Below are positions 5,116 to 63,915 of a stretch of 64,000 bases of DNA, piece by piece (positions within the stretch are counted from its first letter, which is position 1; each line of letters opens with the position of its first letter). The DNA comes from Apostichopus japonicus (taxonomy: Eukaryota > Echinodermata > Holothuroidea > Aspidochirotida > Stichopodidae): contig NC_092572.1 in assembly GCF_037975245.1 (NCBI RefSeq), positions 7,517,501-7,581,500 on the forward strand, written 5' to 3'. The notes under the pieces are model-generated. The model made no database searches and had not been told where the DNA came from. It saw only the letters and a list, made by a program, of their open reading frames with translations. The position numbers and the translations under genes are program-made.

Positions 5116-29036
<23,921 letters not shown>

Positions 29037-29239: not shown

Positions 29240-33130
<3,891 letters not shown>

Positions 33131-36100
33131 TTACTGTAGAATCTCTGGACATTCTCGATCAGTAAGGCTGTTGGTGATTGAGGCGAATTGGTCTTTGTTG
33201 ATGTTCATTTCCAGAAATATCAGGGTCTCTAATGAGGGCAGTGTTACGTCTTTTATGAAGTCAATAGCACACTCTTCTCTAAACGTCATACTTTTCAGTT
33301 TTACCTGTTGGAAGACAATTAAATGGAAAGACGTAAAATTACGTTATATTTTCTTGTTTAATAACCAAAAGAACAAAATTCAATAATTACCATTTATTGA
33401 GGCATATCACATTAATGGGTGTCTTTACAGTAAATTGAAATGGATTTTAGTTAAAACAAATGATCAATCAAATTACGATACCGTATAGGATTTCAGTATA
33501 TGATATTTGTTTTTACATGAATCAGGTCGTACAAAAAACGATATACAGAACTATCATTGTGTAGAGCAATGTGTTAATTGGACAAAATGTTTAGATGGGC
33601 TATCAGCCGTTTCATTTAAACGAGCTGAGGGATCATTTTTCGTCAAGCTGAATATATTATTGAACAAATATTCAAAATTAACTAATCCACATTGTGTTTT
33701 AATAAATTGAAACAGTTACTACTACTTACATGGCAATAGTTGCAAGCATCGCAGAAATCTGTTAAAGCAACTCTGTGGTGTTTCCTGTCAAGATGCTGTA
33801 TGTGAATAGTCGTATCCATACCCATTAAAGGCGTTACATTGCTCGTATATGTACCAAAGAAACCCGTTACATTGCTCATGGATTTACCAAAGATACCCGT
33901 TGCTTTGCTCATATCTTTGATAATTGTTCGCTTCTTCTCGAGATTACTCATTTCATAAATACAGTCGATCAAATTGTTCCACATTTTCTGTTCCTTCAGA
34001 AGATATTGTATAGCTTGATCTAATCTAGCATGATTCAAACCGAACATAAACTGTAATAACCGAACCGTTGAATCGTTAGCATTCTGTTGTATATATTCAT
34101 CTATCCACGCCCACTCTTTATCCCGTTGCGGCACATACTGAGCAGCTAAATATTCCTGAAAGAATTCATGACAAAACATGATTCCAGCATAGGACGAAAA
34201 AGCCAATTCTTCTAATTGACTTCCTTCGCTTCCTACCTTCTTTGAATACTTGAGCAAACCTACGGCTAAGGCAAGTTGGGTATCTTTTTCACCAAGTTTA
34301 TTGTTCCAATACCCGCGTTCACCAAGTGAAAGGCTCATTTTGTTCTCAAATGCTATTTTACCAAGTCTGTTTTCAAGTCTCTTAATATCTTTTTGAATGG
34401 ACTTCTTATTAACTTTCTGCACGTATCGGGATTCCAAACAGGTAATCACTAATCTTATTATTGTTGTCAGTTTGTTAACATTCACTTCTTTATATTTCCC
34501 TGTTGGATCTAATATTCTGCATGTGATTATATGAATAATCATAATCAGCAGAAGGGGTGTTTCAGAAAAATTCTGAAAGATTTCGTTCAACTCCATACAT
34601 TCATAAACCTTTTTTGAAAGTAGAACGGTGTTATTTTTCTGCTCTGTTTTTCCTTGCTTTATCAACTTTGTTGTTACCTCATTGTTACATCCTCCCTCTG
34701 TCACCGGCGGACTGTCGTTATTTGCTGCTTTTTCTTCAATCGTCTCTCTTTTTTTGGCATCCGATTTAGCTTGTGACTTAGAGCCTTTCATATTTGAATC
34801 GAGAGTCAAAGATAACTGGGGCATTGCTTGTGAGTTTAAGTAATATTTGCAGGTTTTCTGAATATACTCATTGACTTGAGTATTACTGAAACCATTCAAT
34901 TTTACTTTTGAATATGGTAGAGCAAATATAGCGGTCATGTGATCAAATTCACGAGACGTTACCCAAACCTTGATGTTTTTAAACTTAAAAGTGTTTATTT
35001 GATTATCGAGTAAATTTGCGACCGTCAGTTTGGAATCATTGTCACCCTCTTTTTGGAGGAGGTTGACACGCTCTTTTTTATCATTGGTAGGATTATCGGC
35101 AGATGTATTGGCACTAATTGTAGACATCGATAGCTCATCAAGCCCATCTAAGAGTACTTTATACTCAAAATTTAGAAATATTTCAGTGATATCGTCCACC
35201 GTCAAGTCGATTCCAACAGGCATCATTTTCTTGACAAGTTCGGAAAGTATCATGGAGGGAACAACCTCTTTAAGGTGAATATATATTAGTATAGGTTCAC
35301 TGGTTTGATTCCTTTTGCCAACTTTCGGATTTGTCATCTTTGATACCCAATCGCTAACCAAGTGTTGAGTGTAGGTTGTCTTCCCGTAACCTAAATCTGC
35401 TATGATGATGACCCGATTATTACTATCGTTATTAAACTCCGGTGTAGACAGATAGTCGCTATCGTGATGGCTAACGTTATCGTTCGGACTAGTTACGATG
35501 CACTGGCATGCAGTGTAAAGGGCATCTATCGATATTGGTTCACCCCATGGTAGCGGCTTGATGATACCAAATTTCTTGTACTGCCTTGTTAGAACATCCA
35601 CTAAAATATCTTTCCTCTCTAAAGAAAAACATTAAATATCAATGACTGCCAATATTGTTCAACGTAATGGTATTATTAAAAGGTATGGTATGGAAAGGTT
35701 TAGAATTGAAAATGTTTGTGTTTAGCTTATTCACACATGTTACTGAATGTGTAAACTTTTTCTAAAGTTTTCTAAATTGCGCCATAGTAAGTATATTAAA
35801 CCGAAATTTACCCCGTACTAGAAAATTGTCTTTGGTTATTACAGTAATTAGGTAGAGTAGTCGAATGTAGTCTTCTTGCTTTGGAATAATAATGTTGGAG
35901 ATAAAAAATTATCGTACCTTCAAGGGATTTTTTCTTCGGTTTTGGCTTCGTACTTGTAAGCTGTATTTCCTGATATAAGAACAGATATTGCATTTATACA
36001 AATAAATAGATACACAGAAACTAATTGTGGACAAAGACTATATGAGGTATAATAAAGATATGATGTCCTTCTTACCGTGTCTAGATCCGCATTTGTTATA

Positions 36101-38802
36101 CCCGTAGCTATAGGAAACAATAATACAAATTTGGTCGATTAAATTTTTGTGGCCTTGGTATTAATGTTCATTGTTAATTACAGAATTATTAATGCAGGTT
36201 TGTAAAATTCATTGTTCACTTCATGCCTAACTAAGGTGTTAATTAACGTTCTAATATGCGGCAATTGCAGGATAAAACATGAACGACGGTATAACGCAAG
36301 CGATGCACGAGTCCAGCAATAGCGATAAATATTAGTTCATTCGTACAACACACTAAATAAACGTCGATATTCATCTGAAAATCATACAATTTTTTGTAAA
36401 CATTTAATGATAAATAACTAACAATTTGTATAAACGGTACAAATGAGTTATGTGCTTTTCTTATAGTTAACAGTCTCAAACAACTTAAATGCGTAAGTAA
36501 AATAACAAGAATAACAGGAATAGGTTACCATACTTCTCCTTACCTCTTCTGTGATAAAAAATACAAGCAACGATGACTAGTATCACTAGGACGATAAAAA
36601 TTCCAATAACTACAAATGGCCAGGCGACGAGACCTTTAGGGCTACTCGTGGGTTCACTTGAAGGAGGTTCTTTGCATGCTTCTGGCAGACAAACGCAAGA
36701 CGGCGAAGATTTTAAATGTTGTAAATTATGTTACACAGTATTGCAATTTAACGGTGGCGTGAGGGAATGTCAATGAAGACATTTATTAAGGCTACACCGT
36801 TACTGTGCTATCGGCCACAATTGCGATGTTATCGTAAACACGTTTTTAATTTTCAGTATGAACTCCTCCCCATAGTGGTCTGTACGCTGTCGAAATTACG
36901 TTTATCCTTAGTCTATTATATCTGATAGAAGAAAGTCACAACCCAAGCTTCTTATATCAATGTTTATATAATTCAATGCTATTTGCGAATTATTTTGTCT
37001 ATATGTTTGTTTCTTCAAAGACCTGTAATTTCACTTTTGCTAAATACAAATGATTTGCCATAAATTTGGATATAATTAATTAAAAACGTGTGTTGCATTT
37101 GCATACTGCCACGGAGATATACCTAATGTGACCAACCTTAGGCCACTTAAAACATTAAGACATAACTATGCATATCCCTTCGTTATGATTGTTCTACACT
37201 GTCCTTTTGGTTTGTTCAAAATGTGCACGTAATTCATTTAAACTGTAAACGCTAAGTCGTTAGGAAGCTTGTAATATATAATTTACTTTGAAAAACCAAC
37301 CGACGTATCGTAAATGTCACGTTACGTGTCTTTATCAGCAATTCATTAATAATACCATCACGAAATTTGCAAGCCAGTATATGTCATGTTACCTGTATTT
37401 ATCCTAACAGTGCTGGAGTGAGTATCAAGAAGAGGAGCAAGCGGAAAGTCTGACGAGGAAGCGATGCATCTGAATGTAGCATCTGCTCCACAACCAGGTG
37501 TTGTGTATTGAATGGTTTTCTCAGTGTACCATCTGTCACCCATTTCTTTATGAATTTGCTCTTCTTTGGTGAAGCTCACTCCAGACTGGTTAGTTACAAT
37601 CCAATCTACTTCCATCATTGGTCTAGAGCCATTCACATAACAAGTCAAGGATCCATAGGTGGTAACGTTCAGTTGACATCCAGTACAGGTCGAACCACAG
37701 GCATCAATCAGTGGGCACGGAGGATCGGGTCGACCTGTCAGGATAAAATGTTCACACTATTTACTCAGTGTTGTTAACTACAGAGCACATTTGTTTTTCA
37801 ATTGATACACCAATATATTAATATGATTGGATTAAAAATGTTACAAATACACAGCTAAATAAATATATGTATAGGAAAAAGATGTGTTTATTACTGTAAA
37901 TAAAAAGCGCCGTGTTTGAGATATCTTGTTCAAAGTTGTCAAAGTAAGCTGTCAGCGTATAGCTGCTTTCATGTTGTAACTGGCTATTAATGATTCTAAG
38001 AGATCCATTGATGGTTAACTCAAATTCCCCTTTCTGGTATTCGCTGCCACCTGATATGCCATCTACGAGTGATAACAAAGGAGCGGTGCTCGTTGTTAAT
38101 CCTTTGTACCAATACAAGTCGTAGTTGGAACCTAGAACATGACATGGAAGCTCAAACGACTTTCCCATTTCTGCAGAACACTTGGGCTGACACTGAACAC
38201 TGCTTGCGTCTGCAAGAAAACATAATATTTCATAATCCTTTATTCACATATTAACGGAATTAGACTCGGTAGTTTTCAAACAAGAAGTTGATATATGCTA
38301 ATTCAATAGTATCTTATAGGATGCAAGTGACAGTGAAGATAGATTTAAACAAACGTTAATATGTTACTTATTAAAACATGTTCTTTATTTTTGTTTTTGC
38401 ATTTGTCTATTTATACATCTTATAATTTGTTCAGACTATTTTCCGATTATGTATTGAATAGCTGTCGTCGTTTAAAGACAAGCATCGATTGTCGAGAAGT
38501 CGTCGAGATACACGTTTTTAGAAATATTACTAATCACAACGAGGAGATTTTTCAGACTGGGGATTGAGTTTATATTCACTAGCCTCTTGCCCTCCTACTA
38601 AAGTTCGGGAACATTGTTCTTTTTTGTTCCTAATTTGAAATCTTCTGCACGCTTCTGATTAGAGATTATTAGCCATCCAGTCATTAGTTTGAGATACATG
38701 ATAACTAAGAAATATTTATTTCGTATTTGACTTACCTCCAACATATATAAATGACATTATTAGAACTAAGACCGCAACGGTCTGCTGTATCAAGTCCACC
38801 AT
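33131..38802 (-). CDS. Membrane-anchored Ig-NLR: signal peptide, 2 Ig, TM, NACHT, LRR (copy A)
   Basis: Hand-assembled exons on the - strand: 38802-38736, 38209-37895, 37734-37393, 36681-36544, 36107-36076, 35969-35918, 35618-33730, 33304-33131. All have GT-AG borders and agreeing phases; the total is 3009 nt (1002 aa). Order: signal peptide ([20 protein letters not shown]), Ig1 (residues ~23-127; usual second Cys apparently missing), Ig2 (~128-241; both Cys and Trp, N-glycosylation sites), transmembrane helix ([20 protein letters not shown]), a short basic linker (KPKPKKK), then NACHT: Walker [10 protein letters not shown] near residue 389, Walker [10 protein letters not shown] near 471, sensor VWVTSREF near 533, and NLR-type [12 protein letters not shown] near 797. 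A 170-nt LRR exon follows. It ends at TAA, or continues if GTAAGA at 33134 is a donor. No CARD, PYD or death domain lies between membrane and NACHT. Predicted role: surface sensing with a cytosolic NTPase oligomerisation module. Confidence 0.88.
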
Positions 38803-58340: not shown

Positions 58341-60434
58341 ATTGTTAAACTGTATTTATGACTGACATATCAAGTCAGGGACCAAACATAAGCAAACGTA
58401 CAGACTTCTAGATGTGAATCCGCCCCTTGTTCCCCCGCCGGAGATTCGCCCTTGGACCACATTTGTGGCCCTAGGGCCCCTGGTCTCCACCCAAGAAAGG
58501 CTTAGCACCAAGGCGCGCATTATCCATAGTCATTTATGTTAGACCCACACATGTTTATTGATTTCCTTTGAACATATTAAGAAGGTTGTAGTATAATAAA
58601 ACGGATCTGCCAACCACATACAAGTTAATTCAATTTTGACTTTGAAGTATTTCCTGTTCAAAAAGTCTTTGGAATCGGTTGACCTAAAATGACTTTCCTA
58701 TTAACAATATGTGTCTTGTGCATTATGGAATGAATCCACATTTGAAGTGGAAATTTCATGAAACAGTCGCTTGTGAAGTCTTCCGAATCGGTTGATCGCA
58801 AACAACTGTAGCAACGCTTACGAAAACTTTATACACTCTATATATTTTGTAACATCGTGTATAAATAAAGTTCCGACGTTTTGAATAAATGGCACTTAAA
58901 AGTCTGATTAAATTGGCATGTCTTTTGGAACAATTCCTTCTCTCATTTGCCTTTCTGTAAGTTGAATTTTGGTACTCGTATGGTCGCAGGCGATGTCTTC
59001 TCACATTTACGTACTAAAAAGGTTTCATTACGGCTAGATGTCTTCCGGCTACAATTCCTTTACCCATACTCCTTTCTCCAGGTTGAAATTGGAACACTCA
59101 TGGTTGCAGGTGATTTCGTCTCACAGTTCATACACTGAACTGAACTATTTTTTGCTATAAAATATTAACTGAAAGAAACTGTAGAGAAGGTATGTTATAA
59201 GTAGGTTATGAAACATGTCCATACATGAAAGCACTTCATCGTGAACCGAACAAACTAAATTTGATGCCCAGTTGGTTCAGCCTATTTTGCAAACTTAGTG
59301 AGAAACATTTCATTAACCTAAAACTAGACCGTAACAAATGCAAACGACTCAGTTGCCATTGTACACACAGTATTGTTTCTGTATCTTGTTATTGTATGTT
59401 GTCAAAAAAATGTAATTAGAATATCACTCACTTTTCATTGTCAAACCCCTCAAAGCTGATTTCTCTGTCTTTTTGGCTTCTTGTTTTACTTCGTTCGATA
59501 CCGAACATTTTTTGAACCTTCATTAGAAAGAATCAAGAAATATATATAATATATCAAGTCATGATATTTTTAAAGAAGCAACTTCCGTCTAAAATGCAAC
59601 CCTCTGGAAAGCTGGATACAAGTATGAAATTGAATACACACCGAAGAGCAGCAACCATACCCAGATAAAGACGAAAAGAACAAAACCAGAATATTAATAT
59701 GGTAACACTCCACCATACAATAAAAGCGTTAAAACCAATGTGGGTGCGCAGTTTCTGAAACTCGTAAACAAGCATTTTTCTTCTGACCATGCCATACATA
59801 AGATATTTAACAAGAACATCATCAAAATTAGCTATAGCTGTATGAGGATTATGTGGCACATAATAAAAGGCCGCAATACCAAATCAAAAATGTCGAAAGC
59901 AAACCCGGATACCAGATAAATAACTTGAAATTGCAGAAAAAAAGCGAGATGACTTCTATCCAGGGAATGTTTCGCAGCGATATAATCTACAAAGCAGATG
60001 TCACATCTGGTCGAGAGACAGCAGTATAAATCGGGCTGGCTAGTGAAAGCTTCAATGCAAGGTACAACAACCACACCAAATATTTCCGAAACGAATGTTA
60101 CCAAAAAGAAAATGAGCTCTAAAACCGAATTGGGACTTAAAAGATAGAATATTGATCACTTCATTTCTTGGGAAATCCTAAGTCAGTCTAAGACACATAG
60201 GCGCAGCTCCGACCAGTGTAATCTCTGTATGAAAAAAAAACAAGTTATTCTTATTAAGAAGCAGAGCCGACAAAAGCTACAACTCAATCTACAAGCGTAG
60301 CGAATTTATTGCCATATGTCGTCATGACAACCGTTCAAAAAAGCCCCCAAAGGTAATAGTGGCCCTTGAAAAATTCAGTTGCCTGATGATTGCAGCAGTG
60401 AAAAGAACTCAACATTCGCGTGAAAGTATGAAAG

Positions 60435-60555: not shown

Positions 60556-62964
60556 TACATTAGAATTTCTGGACATTTTCGATTAGTAAGGCTGGTGATG
60601 ATTGATACGAATTGGTCTTCGTTGATGTTCATTTCCAGAAATTGCAGGGTCTCTAATGAGGGCAGTGTTACGTCTTTGATGAAGTCAATAGCACACTCTT
60701 CTCTAAATGTCATTCTTTTTACGTTTACCTGTTGGAGTACAATTACGTTATATTTCCATGTTGAATAACCCAAAGAACAAAATTCAATACCTAACACTTA
60801 TTGAGGCATATCACAATATTGGGTGTGTTTAGTACATCAAAATGGAGTTTAGTTAAAACAAATGATCAATCAAATCATGATACCGTATAGGATTTCAGGA
60901 TATTTTATTTGTTTGTACATGAATCAGGTCGTATATAAAAATATAAAAAACGATATACAGAACTATTAATGTGTAGAGCAATATGCTAATTGGATAACAT
61001 GTTTAGGTGGGCTATCAGCCGGTTCATTGAACCAACTTATCAATCATTTTTTTTCACAAAATCACAAGTTGAACATAAATATTGGAAAATTAAATAAGCA
61101 ACATTATTTTAATATAAATTGAAACAGTTTCCACTACTTACATCACATGAATTGCAAACATCGCAGAAATCTGTTAAAGCGACTCTGTGGTGTTTCCTGT
61201 CAAGATGCTGTATGTGAATCGTTCCTTTGCTTATTTTGGTGATAATTTCCTGCTTCTTCTCTAGATTACTTATTTCATAAATACAGTCGATCAAATTGTC
61301 CCACATTTGTTGTTCCTTGAGAGATTGTACTGCTTTATCTAATCTAGCATGATTCATGCCGAACATAAACTGCAATAATCTAACCGTTGCATCGTCAGTA
61401 CTATTTTTTATGAGTTCATCTATCCACGCCCATTCTTTAACCCTCTTTGGCACATACTGAGCAGCTAAAAATTCCTGAAAGAATTCATGATAAAACATGA
61501 TTCCAGCATAGGACGAAAAAGCCAGTTCTTCTAATTGACTTCCTCCGCCTCCTACTTTCTTTGAATACTTGAGCAAACCTACGGCTACGGCAAGTTGGGT
61601 ATCTTTTTCACCAAGTTCATTGTTCCAATACTCGCGTTCACCAAGTGACAGGCTCATTTTGTTCTCAAATGCTATTTTACCAAGGCTGTCTTCAAGACTC
61701 TTAATATCTTTTTGAATGGACATTTTATCAACTTTCTGCACGTATCGGGATTCCAAACAGGTAATCACTAATCGTATTATTGTTGTCAGTTTGTTAACAT
61801 TCATTTCTTTATATTTCCCTGTTGGCTCTAACATTCTGCATGTGATTATATGAATAATCATAATCAGCAGAAGGGGTGTTTCAGAAAAATTCTGAACAAT
61901 TTCGTTTAATTCCATACATTCATAAACCCTTTTTGAAAGCATTTCTAAAGTATCACAAGCTACGTTTCGTGGAACGGTGTTATCTTTCTGCTCTGATTTT
62001 CCTTGCTTTATCAACTTTGTTGTTACCTCATTGTTACATCCTCCCTCTGTCACCAGCAGACTGTCGTTATTTGTCGTTTTTTCTTCAATCGTCTCATGTT
62101 TTTTGGCATCCGATTTAGCTTGTGACTTAGGGTTGCTCATATTTGAATCGAGGATCAAAGATAACTGGGGTATTGCTTGTGAGTTAAAGTAATATTTGCA
62201 GGTTTTCTGAATATACTCATTGACTTGATTATTACTGAAACCATTCAATTTTACTTTTGAATATGGTAGAGCAAATGAAGTTTTCATGTCATCAAATTCA
62301 CGAGACGTTACCCAAACCTTAATATTTTTAAACTTAGTGTTTATTGTATTTTCGAGTAAATTTGCGACCGTCAGATTAGCATAGTTTTCAGCCCCCTCTT
62401 GGAAGAGGTTGACAAGCTCTTCTTTATCATTGGTAGGATTCTCTGCAGATGTATTGGCACTAATCGTAGACATCGATAGCTCATCAAGCCCATCCAAGAG
62501 TACTTGAAACTCAAAATTTTGAAATATTTCAATAATATCGTCCACCGTCAAGTCGATTCCAACAGGCATCATTTTCTTGACAAGTTCGGAAAGTATCATG
62601 GAAGGAACAACCTCTTTCAGGTGAATATATATTAGTATAGGTTCACTGGTTTGATTCTTTTTACCAACTTTCGGATTTGTCATCTTTGATACCCAATCGC
62701 TAACCAAGTGTTGAGTGAAGGTTGTCTTCCCGTAACCTAAATCTGCTGTAACGATGACCCGATTAGTACTTTCGTTATTAAACTCCGGTGTAGACAGAAA
62801 GTCGCTATCGCGATGACTGACGTCACCTTTCGCGTTAGTGACGATGCATCGGCACGTAGTGTAAAAGGCTTGTATCGGTATTGGTTCACCCCATGGTAGC
62901 GGCTTGATGAAGCCAAATTTCTCGTACTGCTTTATTAGAACATCCACCAATTTTTTTTTCCTCT
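60555..62964 (-). CDS. NACHT-LRR part of Ig-NLR copy B (5' exons outside the window)
   Basis: Exons 62964-61142 (NACHT) and 60728-60555 (LRR; ends at TAA, or at 60559 if GTAAGA is a donor) match copy A exon for exon. The same acceptor position, phase and GAT|GTAAGT donor are present. Motifs: Walker [13 protein letters not shown], Walker [30 protein letters not shown], and LRR-exon sequence [20 protein letters not shown]. Both exons are fully open, unlike its pseudogene neighbour. Relative to copy A it gains about 14 residues before LSKRVYECMEL and lacks a ~25-residue segment near the NACHT C-terminus. The linker exon that in copy A lies 300 bp upstream is not found. The AACTGG tandem repeat occupies that place, so Ig, TM and linker exons should lie beyond 64000 or are lost. 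Confidence 0.85.
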
Positions 62965-63184: not shown

Positions 63185-63915
63185 AAATCCAATTGTTGCA
63201 ATCCCTAGTAGAAATTCCAGTAGAACCCAGTTAAAAAATCAACTAGGTTCTACTAGGGCCTACTGTGTTTAACTGGTTTTTAACTGTGTTTAACTGGGTC
63301 TTACTGGGTTCCAACTGGGCTATGCTGTACATGAGCTAGGTTCAACTGAGTTTACACAATGTTCAACTGGGTTTGTTCAGGCCCAACTGAATTTGAACTA
63401 TGTTTGAACTGGTCCAGCTGGGCTTCAACTAGGTTTCACTGGTTTTTGCACTAGCCCAACTGGGTTTGAACTATGTTGACTGGTGAACTTGCCCTGTTGG
63501 GGTTGAACTAGGTTTCACTGATTTTGCACTGGCCCAACTGGGTGTGAACTATGTTGGCTGGTGAACTGACCCAGCTGGGGTTTAACTAGGTTTCACTGGT
63601 TTGCACAGGCCCAACTGGGTTTGAACTGTGTTTACTGGTGAACTTGCCCTGTTGTGATTGAACTAGGTTTCACACTGGCCCAACTGGGTTTGAACTATGT
63701 TGACTGGTGAAATTTCCCTGTTGGGTTTCAACTAGGTTTCACATTGGCCCAACTGGGTTTGGACTATGTTGACTGGTGAACTTGCCCGGCTGGGTTGAAA
63801 CTAGGTTTCACTGGTTTTGCACTGGCCCAACTGGGTTTAGACTGTTGACTTGTGAACCTGCCTAGCTGGGGTTGAACAAGGGTTCACTGGTTTTGCACAG
63901 GTTTGAAGTAGGCTG
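63185..63915. repeat. Tandem repeat based on AACTGGGTTT, ~70-80-bp units
   Basis: Units such as GGCCCAACTGGGTTTGAACT, then TATGTTGACTGGTGAACTTG and GAACTAGGTTTCACTGG, recur near 63453, 63531, 63608, 63677, 63746 and 63826. The left part is a shorter-period array of AACTGGGTT-like words. It occupies the first intron upstream of the NACHT exon of NLR-B. Confidence 0.9.

Follow-up and report, generated by a model that had tools for sequence, protein, structure and literature searches.

A sea cucumber gene for a predicted Ig-TM-NACHT membrane receptor, with a hint of exon exchange between copies

The window analysed here, a stretch of 64,000 nucleotides of Apostichopus japonicus DNA, holds a gene on its minus strand. 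Eight exons, separated by GT-AG introns and forming a single open frame from the ATG at 38802, lie between 38802 and 33135, and the junctions 36544/36107, 36076/35969 and 35918/35618 proposed in an earlier note on this DNA were all exact. Exon 1 (38736..38802) carries the start codon and an N-terminal hydrophobic stretch, probably a signal peptide; the A. japonicus protein P0002 starts alike. Exon 2 (37895..38209) encodes a V-type Ig domain, exon 3 (37393..37734) a second, C-like Ig domain that is 92% identical to P0002, and exon 4 (36544..36681) a stalk and the transmembrane (TM) helix. Exon 5 (36076..36107) and the Lys-rich exon 6 (35918..35969) presumably form a cytoplasmic linker. The NACHT domain and a helical region behind it are found in exon 7 (33730..35618), and exon 8 (33135..33304) encodes an LRR-like tail.

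The earlier note let the gene end at 33131. The TAA at this position sits inside the donor of exon 8, GTAAGAAT (GTAAG), i.e., the 3' end of the exon is a splice donor and not a stop, and several paralogues run further; we hence conclude that the gene does not end there. Exon 9 (31924..32012), missed before, was recognised by homology to P0003 and other tails, and it is joined by GT-AG sites with the frame kept. Exon 10 (31671..31684), with the stop codon, was modelled after the annotation of a single protein, P0003, and we are less sure of it. The completed model has 10 exons and 1035 amino acids with one terminal stop, and its last five residues, KISFS, are also those of P0003. The longer last exon used by other paralogues has left remnants, two copies behind each gene, at 31422-31658 and, behind the neighbour gene described below, at 58922-59152; they are frame-shifted or, behind the neighbour, stop-carrying.

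When P0002 was searched against the window with tblastn, the exons were matched in order on the minus strand, with E values of 7e-59 for the V exon, 6e-64 for the second Ig exon, 4e-10 for the TM exon, 0.0 for the NACHT exon and 2e-19 for exon 8. Chance joining of exons is ruled out by A. japonicus proteins that match the same exons in order. The locus is confirmed as a real gene, with the N-terminal hydrophobic stretch, Ig ectodomain, TM and NACHT in one chain. The closest protein listed was P0003, with 73% identity over most of the length; no near-identical protein was among the matches listed, and the gene may therefore be unannotated at NCBI or annotated in pieces. The neighbour gene, in contrast, is annotated exactly.

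Two Ig domains had been claimed for the ectodomain. The V-type domain holds, with a Pfam V-set score above the cut-off (28.8 vs 26 bits), and the second is suggested by weak profile matches in relatives (C1-set, E 0.013 in P0003; C2-set, E 0.015 in P0028). Moreover, the family profile can be aligned with TCR beta and antibody light chains beyond their V domain, with E between 0.001 and 0.01. In a Pfam scan of nine relatives the V-set was above cut-off in one (P0002). Hydrophobic segments were called from Kyte-Doolittle hydropathy. One strong segment, with a mean of 3.65 at residues 264-282, bears out the TM helix, and the N-terminal stretch (2.02 at residues 9-27) is present as described, its identity as a signal peptide being probable. 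The next-strongest internal stretch is Pro-Leu-rich (residues 671-689, 1.68). Four N-glycosylation sequons and, in the family alignment, the conserved cysteines all precede the TM. Lys and Arg residues are equal in number on both sides of it (2 and 2), and 106 residues separate the TM from the P-loop.

The NACHT domain scored just below the Pfam cut-off in this gene (23.9 vs 26.7 bits); the neighbour copy, with 28.7 bits, and all nine relatives scanned exceeded the cut-off, and we regard the presence of the domain as established. It contains segments that we take to be Walker A, Walker B, sensor-1-like and FxHxxFQE-like motifs, with the first Gly of Walker A replaced by Ala. These ATP-site motifs are compatible with ATP-driven NACHT oligomerisation, which may take place at the membrane, an idea raised by the earlier note, in which ligand binding at the surface would drive this step directly. 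As the earlier note had stated, a death-fold N-terminus is absent: no death-fold domain was matched with Pfam, and Ig and TM stand in its place. The NLRs of vertebrates, e.g., NLRC4 and NLRP3, are cytosolic and have a death-fold N-terminus and a long LRR array. They share with this gene the NACHT with ATP-site motifs and the FxHxxFQE-like motif and differ from it in those three features. Because Ig and TM replace the cytosolic, death-fold N-terminus, the gene is NLR-related and not a classical NLR.

The description of the tail as an LRR exon had to be weakened, with no Pfam LRR model matching this gene at E<=1. Of ten family tails scanned, two gave weak matches to an LRR family of plants, with 0.022 as the best E, while the tail of this gene gave no match. 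By eye it comprises about three strand-helix units, and we call it LRR-like, at best a degenerate LRR. A full LRR domain was rejected on the Pfam scans of the gene, of nine relatives and of the ten tails. For the tail profile, a match in the PDB at E 1.6 was discarded as chance, and a simple LRR pattern scan, with matches mainly in the TM and the Pro-Leu stretch, was uninformative on LRRs.

Protein searches, in each of which about 8000 candidates were scored, gave at least 29 distinct relatives (P0002-P0030), 20 from A. japonicus and six from Holothuria leucospilota; no further animal was named among the matches listed. Both species belong to one order and, according to NCBI, to two families, Stichopodidae and Holothuriidae. 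Ig-TM-NACHT proteins, for which the earlier note had proposed a search in related genomes, are thus found in both, and V-type Ig, TM and NACHT occur in one annotated chain in, e.g., P0002, P0003, P0013, P0016 and P0017. Identity to this gene over nearly the full length was 73% for P0003, 65% for P0002, which in the protein search had covered 100% of the query at 66%, and 33% for P0013. A strong TM was present in 24 of the 29 listed relatives, the others being P0012, P0018, P0019, P0020 and P0022. In 20 of these 24, Lys and Arg were more numerous in the 20 residues after the TM than in the 20 before it, and in four they were equal. Among the matches listed, 11 of the 20 A. japonicus relatives lie on the 34.6 Mb sequence of P0003. 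We are highly confident that the gene belongs to a sea cucumber family of Ig-TM-NACHT membrane receptors. The fusion of a predicted surface Ig receptor with an NLR-type engine is no isolated oddity; it recurs as a multi-gene family in sea cucumbers of the Stichopodidae and Holothuriidae.

A second copy of exons 7-10 lies at 62964-59165 on the minus strand, and its translation is exactly residues 321-1017 of P0003. Its exon 7 (61142..62964) encodes NACHT and is followed by exon 8 (60559..60728), exon 9 (59432..59517) and exon 10 (59165..59178), the last with the stop codon. No Ig or TM exon of this neighbour was found within the 64,000-nt window, so those exons must lie beyond 64000. Ahead of the NACHT exon of the neighbour, in what is either an intron or a spacer, stands a tandem array with units of about 69 bp (63405-63898). 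Blocks at 25.6-35.7 kb align with blocks at 54.1-63.0 kb at 67-93% identity and show that this region was duplicated, the copies being about 27 kb apart. Between the two copies, dN is 0.091 and dS 0.162, as measured over 687 codons.

It could be that the gene is a decayed, unexpressed copy with an intact reading frame, and this we consider improbable. It would fit with the want of a near-identical annotated protein among the matches listed, with the last-exon remnants behind the gene at 31422-31658 and with a dN/dS to the neighbour of 0.56 overall and 0.98, i.e., about 1, in exons 9-10. NACHT and exon 8 gave 0.60 and 0.58, respectively, and a 64-codon linker gave 2.1, a value resting on just two synonymous changes. 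However, the 1035 codons contain no internal stop, every splice site is intact, and dN/dS falls to 0.37 in the helical region that follows NACHT, which argues against decay.

The earlier note had suggested an undescribed receptor class. Chains with Ig, TM and NACHT have been published for the same species, AjNLRC4 (MN607598; PMC8699970) and AjNLR-new (PIK48001.1; PMC13133943), and the locus is hence another member and not a new class. AjNLRC4 is reported with the Ig part outside and NACHT inside, like the arrangement predicted here, with two called TMs and, as described, without CARD or LRR (PMC8699970). According to the same report it is located at the membrane, its Ig part binds microbes and forms oligomers, a dimer appears in cells after Vibrio, NACHT binds beta-actin, and the receptor is internalised and mediates phagocytosis (PMC8699970). 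A further report describes binding of the Ig part to caspase-1 and lytic cell death (PMC11932488). The distance from TM end to NACHT start is given as 97 residues, compared with 106 from TM to P-loop here. The AjNLRC4 ectodomain is longer, with the TM called at 483-503 versus 265-283 here; its called Ig starts are 220 residues apart, about one V plus C unit, so the ectodomain may be V-C-V-C. The nearest counterpart of its second TM (776-795) is the Pro-Leu-rich stretch in the NACHT half, although the match is not close: in relatives this stretch follows the P-loop at a distance of 212 to 288 residues, and the second TM lies about 176 after the NACHT start. No listed sequence match carried the AjNLRC4 name, and a kinship of our gene with AjNLRC4 is suggested by architecture. 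Likewise compared by description are the NLRs of Chiridota heheva, which combine NACHT with a V-set Ig domain as this gene does and for which the report states that such NLRs were not identified in sea urchin (PMC8913654).

We propose that the gene encodes a type I membrane receptor, with signal peptide, V-type Ig, C-like Ig, TM, basic linker, NACHT, helical region and LRR-like tail in this order, which would act as a phagocytic receptor of coelomocytes. The 10-exon frame, the charge pattern at the relatives' TM, the four sequons, the NACHT motifs and the published AjNLRC4 work make this reading probable. Counted against it are the tie of Lys and Arg at the gene's own TM, the NACHT score below cut-off, the Gly to Ala exchange in Walker A, the 73% identity of the best listed protein and the opposite topology reported for AjNLR-new. 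The receptor would most likely sit on coelomocytes, where the V domain would recognise microbial surfaces. Bound receptors would then cluster and bring their cytoplasmic NACHT parts together, and the NACHT part would couple to actin, leading to actin-driven uptake as published for AjNLRC4. For this copy we hold the phagocytic mechanism to be somewhat favoured, the steps beyond anatomy being carried over from AjNLRC4.

AjNLR-new, described as a single chain with Ig, TM and NACHT parts and, with 1197 amino acids, within the family size range, is likened to this family by its description. For it an inverted orientation, with intracellular Ig and extracellular NACHT, was reported from TMHMM, from surface binding of a recombinant NACHT fragment and from a TM-NACHT fragment in 293T cells (PMC13133943). 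Applied to the present gene, this orientation is most improbable: the hydrophobic N-terminus, the sequons and the conserved cysteines all precede the TM, and the positive charge lies behind it in the 20 of 24 relatives noted above. The TMHMM call could flip if a signal peptide had been counted as a TM, and the type I features give reason to recheck the topology reported for AjNLR-new. A further alternative is a pair of genes head to tail, the first for an Ig-TM receptor that stops behind the TM and the second for a cytosolic NACHT protein, which the model would have joined in error. It would fit with the five of 29 listed relatives that, as annotated, lack a strong TM, some of them being short models. 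We consider it very improbable: ten exons share one frame, in two species separately annotated proteins combine V-type Ig, TM and NACHT in a single chain, and AjNLRC4 was studied as one protein (PMC8699970).

Within the Ig-TM-NACHT family, V and NACHT parts of this gene point to different closest relatives. Identity to P0002 and P0003 is 93% and 44%, respectively, in the V domain, and 79% and 86% in the NACHT part, in a segment table that omits seven of the 29 relatives (P0012, P0018-P0023). Trees were built for 11 of 23 aligned rows under LG+G4, with no mixture model, and the pairings tested were chosen after these identities had been seen. The V tree joins the gene with P0002 (support 98/98) and rejects pairing with P0003 (AU p 4e-6), whereas the NACHT tree joins it with P0003 (100/100) and rejects P0002 (AU p 0.0036), both under a warning of long branches meeting, those of P0024 and P0025. 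The tree of the second Ig exon decides neither pairing (p 0.50 and 0.13). Three classes can be told apart among seven V domains of A. japonicus, the gene with P0002, P0003 with P0006, and P0004 with P0005 and P0007; V domains are 40-61% identical between classes, versus 75-86% for the NACHT parts of the same proteins.

Exons 2 to 4 all have phase 1-1 and lengths divisible by three, so the frame stays intact when a V exon is moved. Since the V exon of this gene pairs with P0002 and NACHT with P0003, the recognition exon has perhaps been exchanged between copies, and the tree mismatch suggests exon exchange or gene conversion as its simplest reading. The main alternative is a mis-joined gene model, either for P0002 or for P0003. 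The mismatch depends on these annotated models, the V exons of which lie outside the window; in the present gene, V and NACHT exons sit within 4.5 kb of each other. This mismatch of ancestry, with its hint at exchange, is what is new here; we met no report of exon exchange in these receptors in the open-licence PMC literature, searched without that focus. More tentatively, and with the odds rather against it, the V exon could be a swappable cassette exchanged among arrayed Ig-TM-NACHT genes over a slower-changing signalling part, giving a diversified, perhaps individual-specific repertoire wired to NACHT. The mismatch thereby offers a testable idea of how recognition in an invertebrate might diversify while the signalling part is kept.

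Elsewhere in the window, ten other open reading frames were scanned with Pfam (E<=0.01), nine of which gave no match. The remaining one, on the minus strand at 18651-19550, matched a C2H2 zinc finger (26.0 bits vs a cut-off of 25.2). A tandem array at 20737-23350 repeats a 138 bp unit 19 times with 95% matches, and its GC content is above that of the rest of the window.
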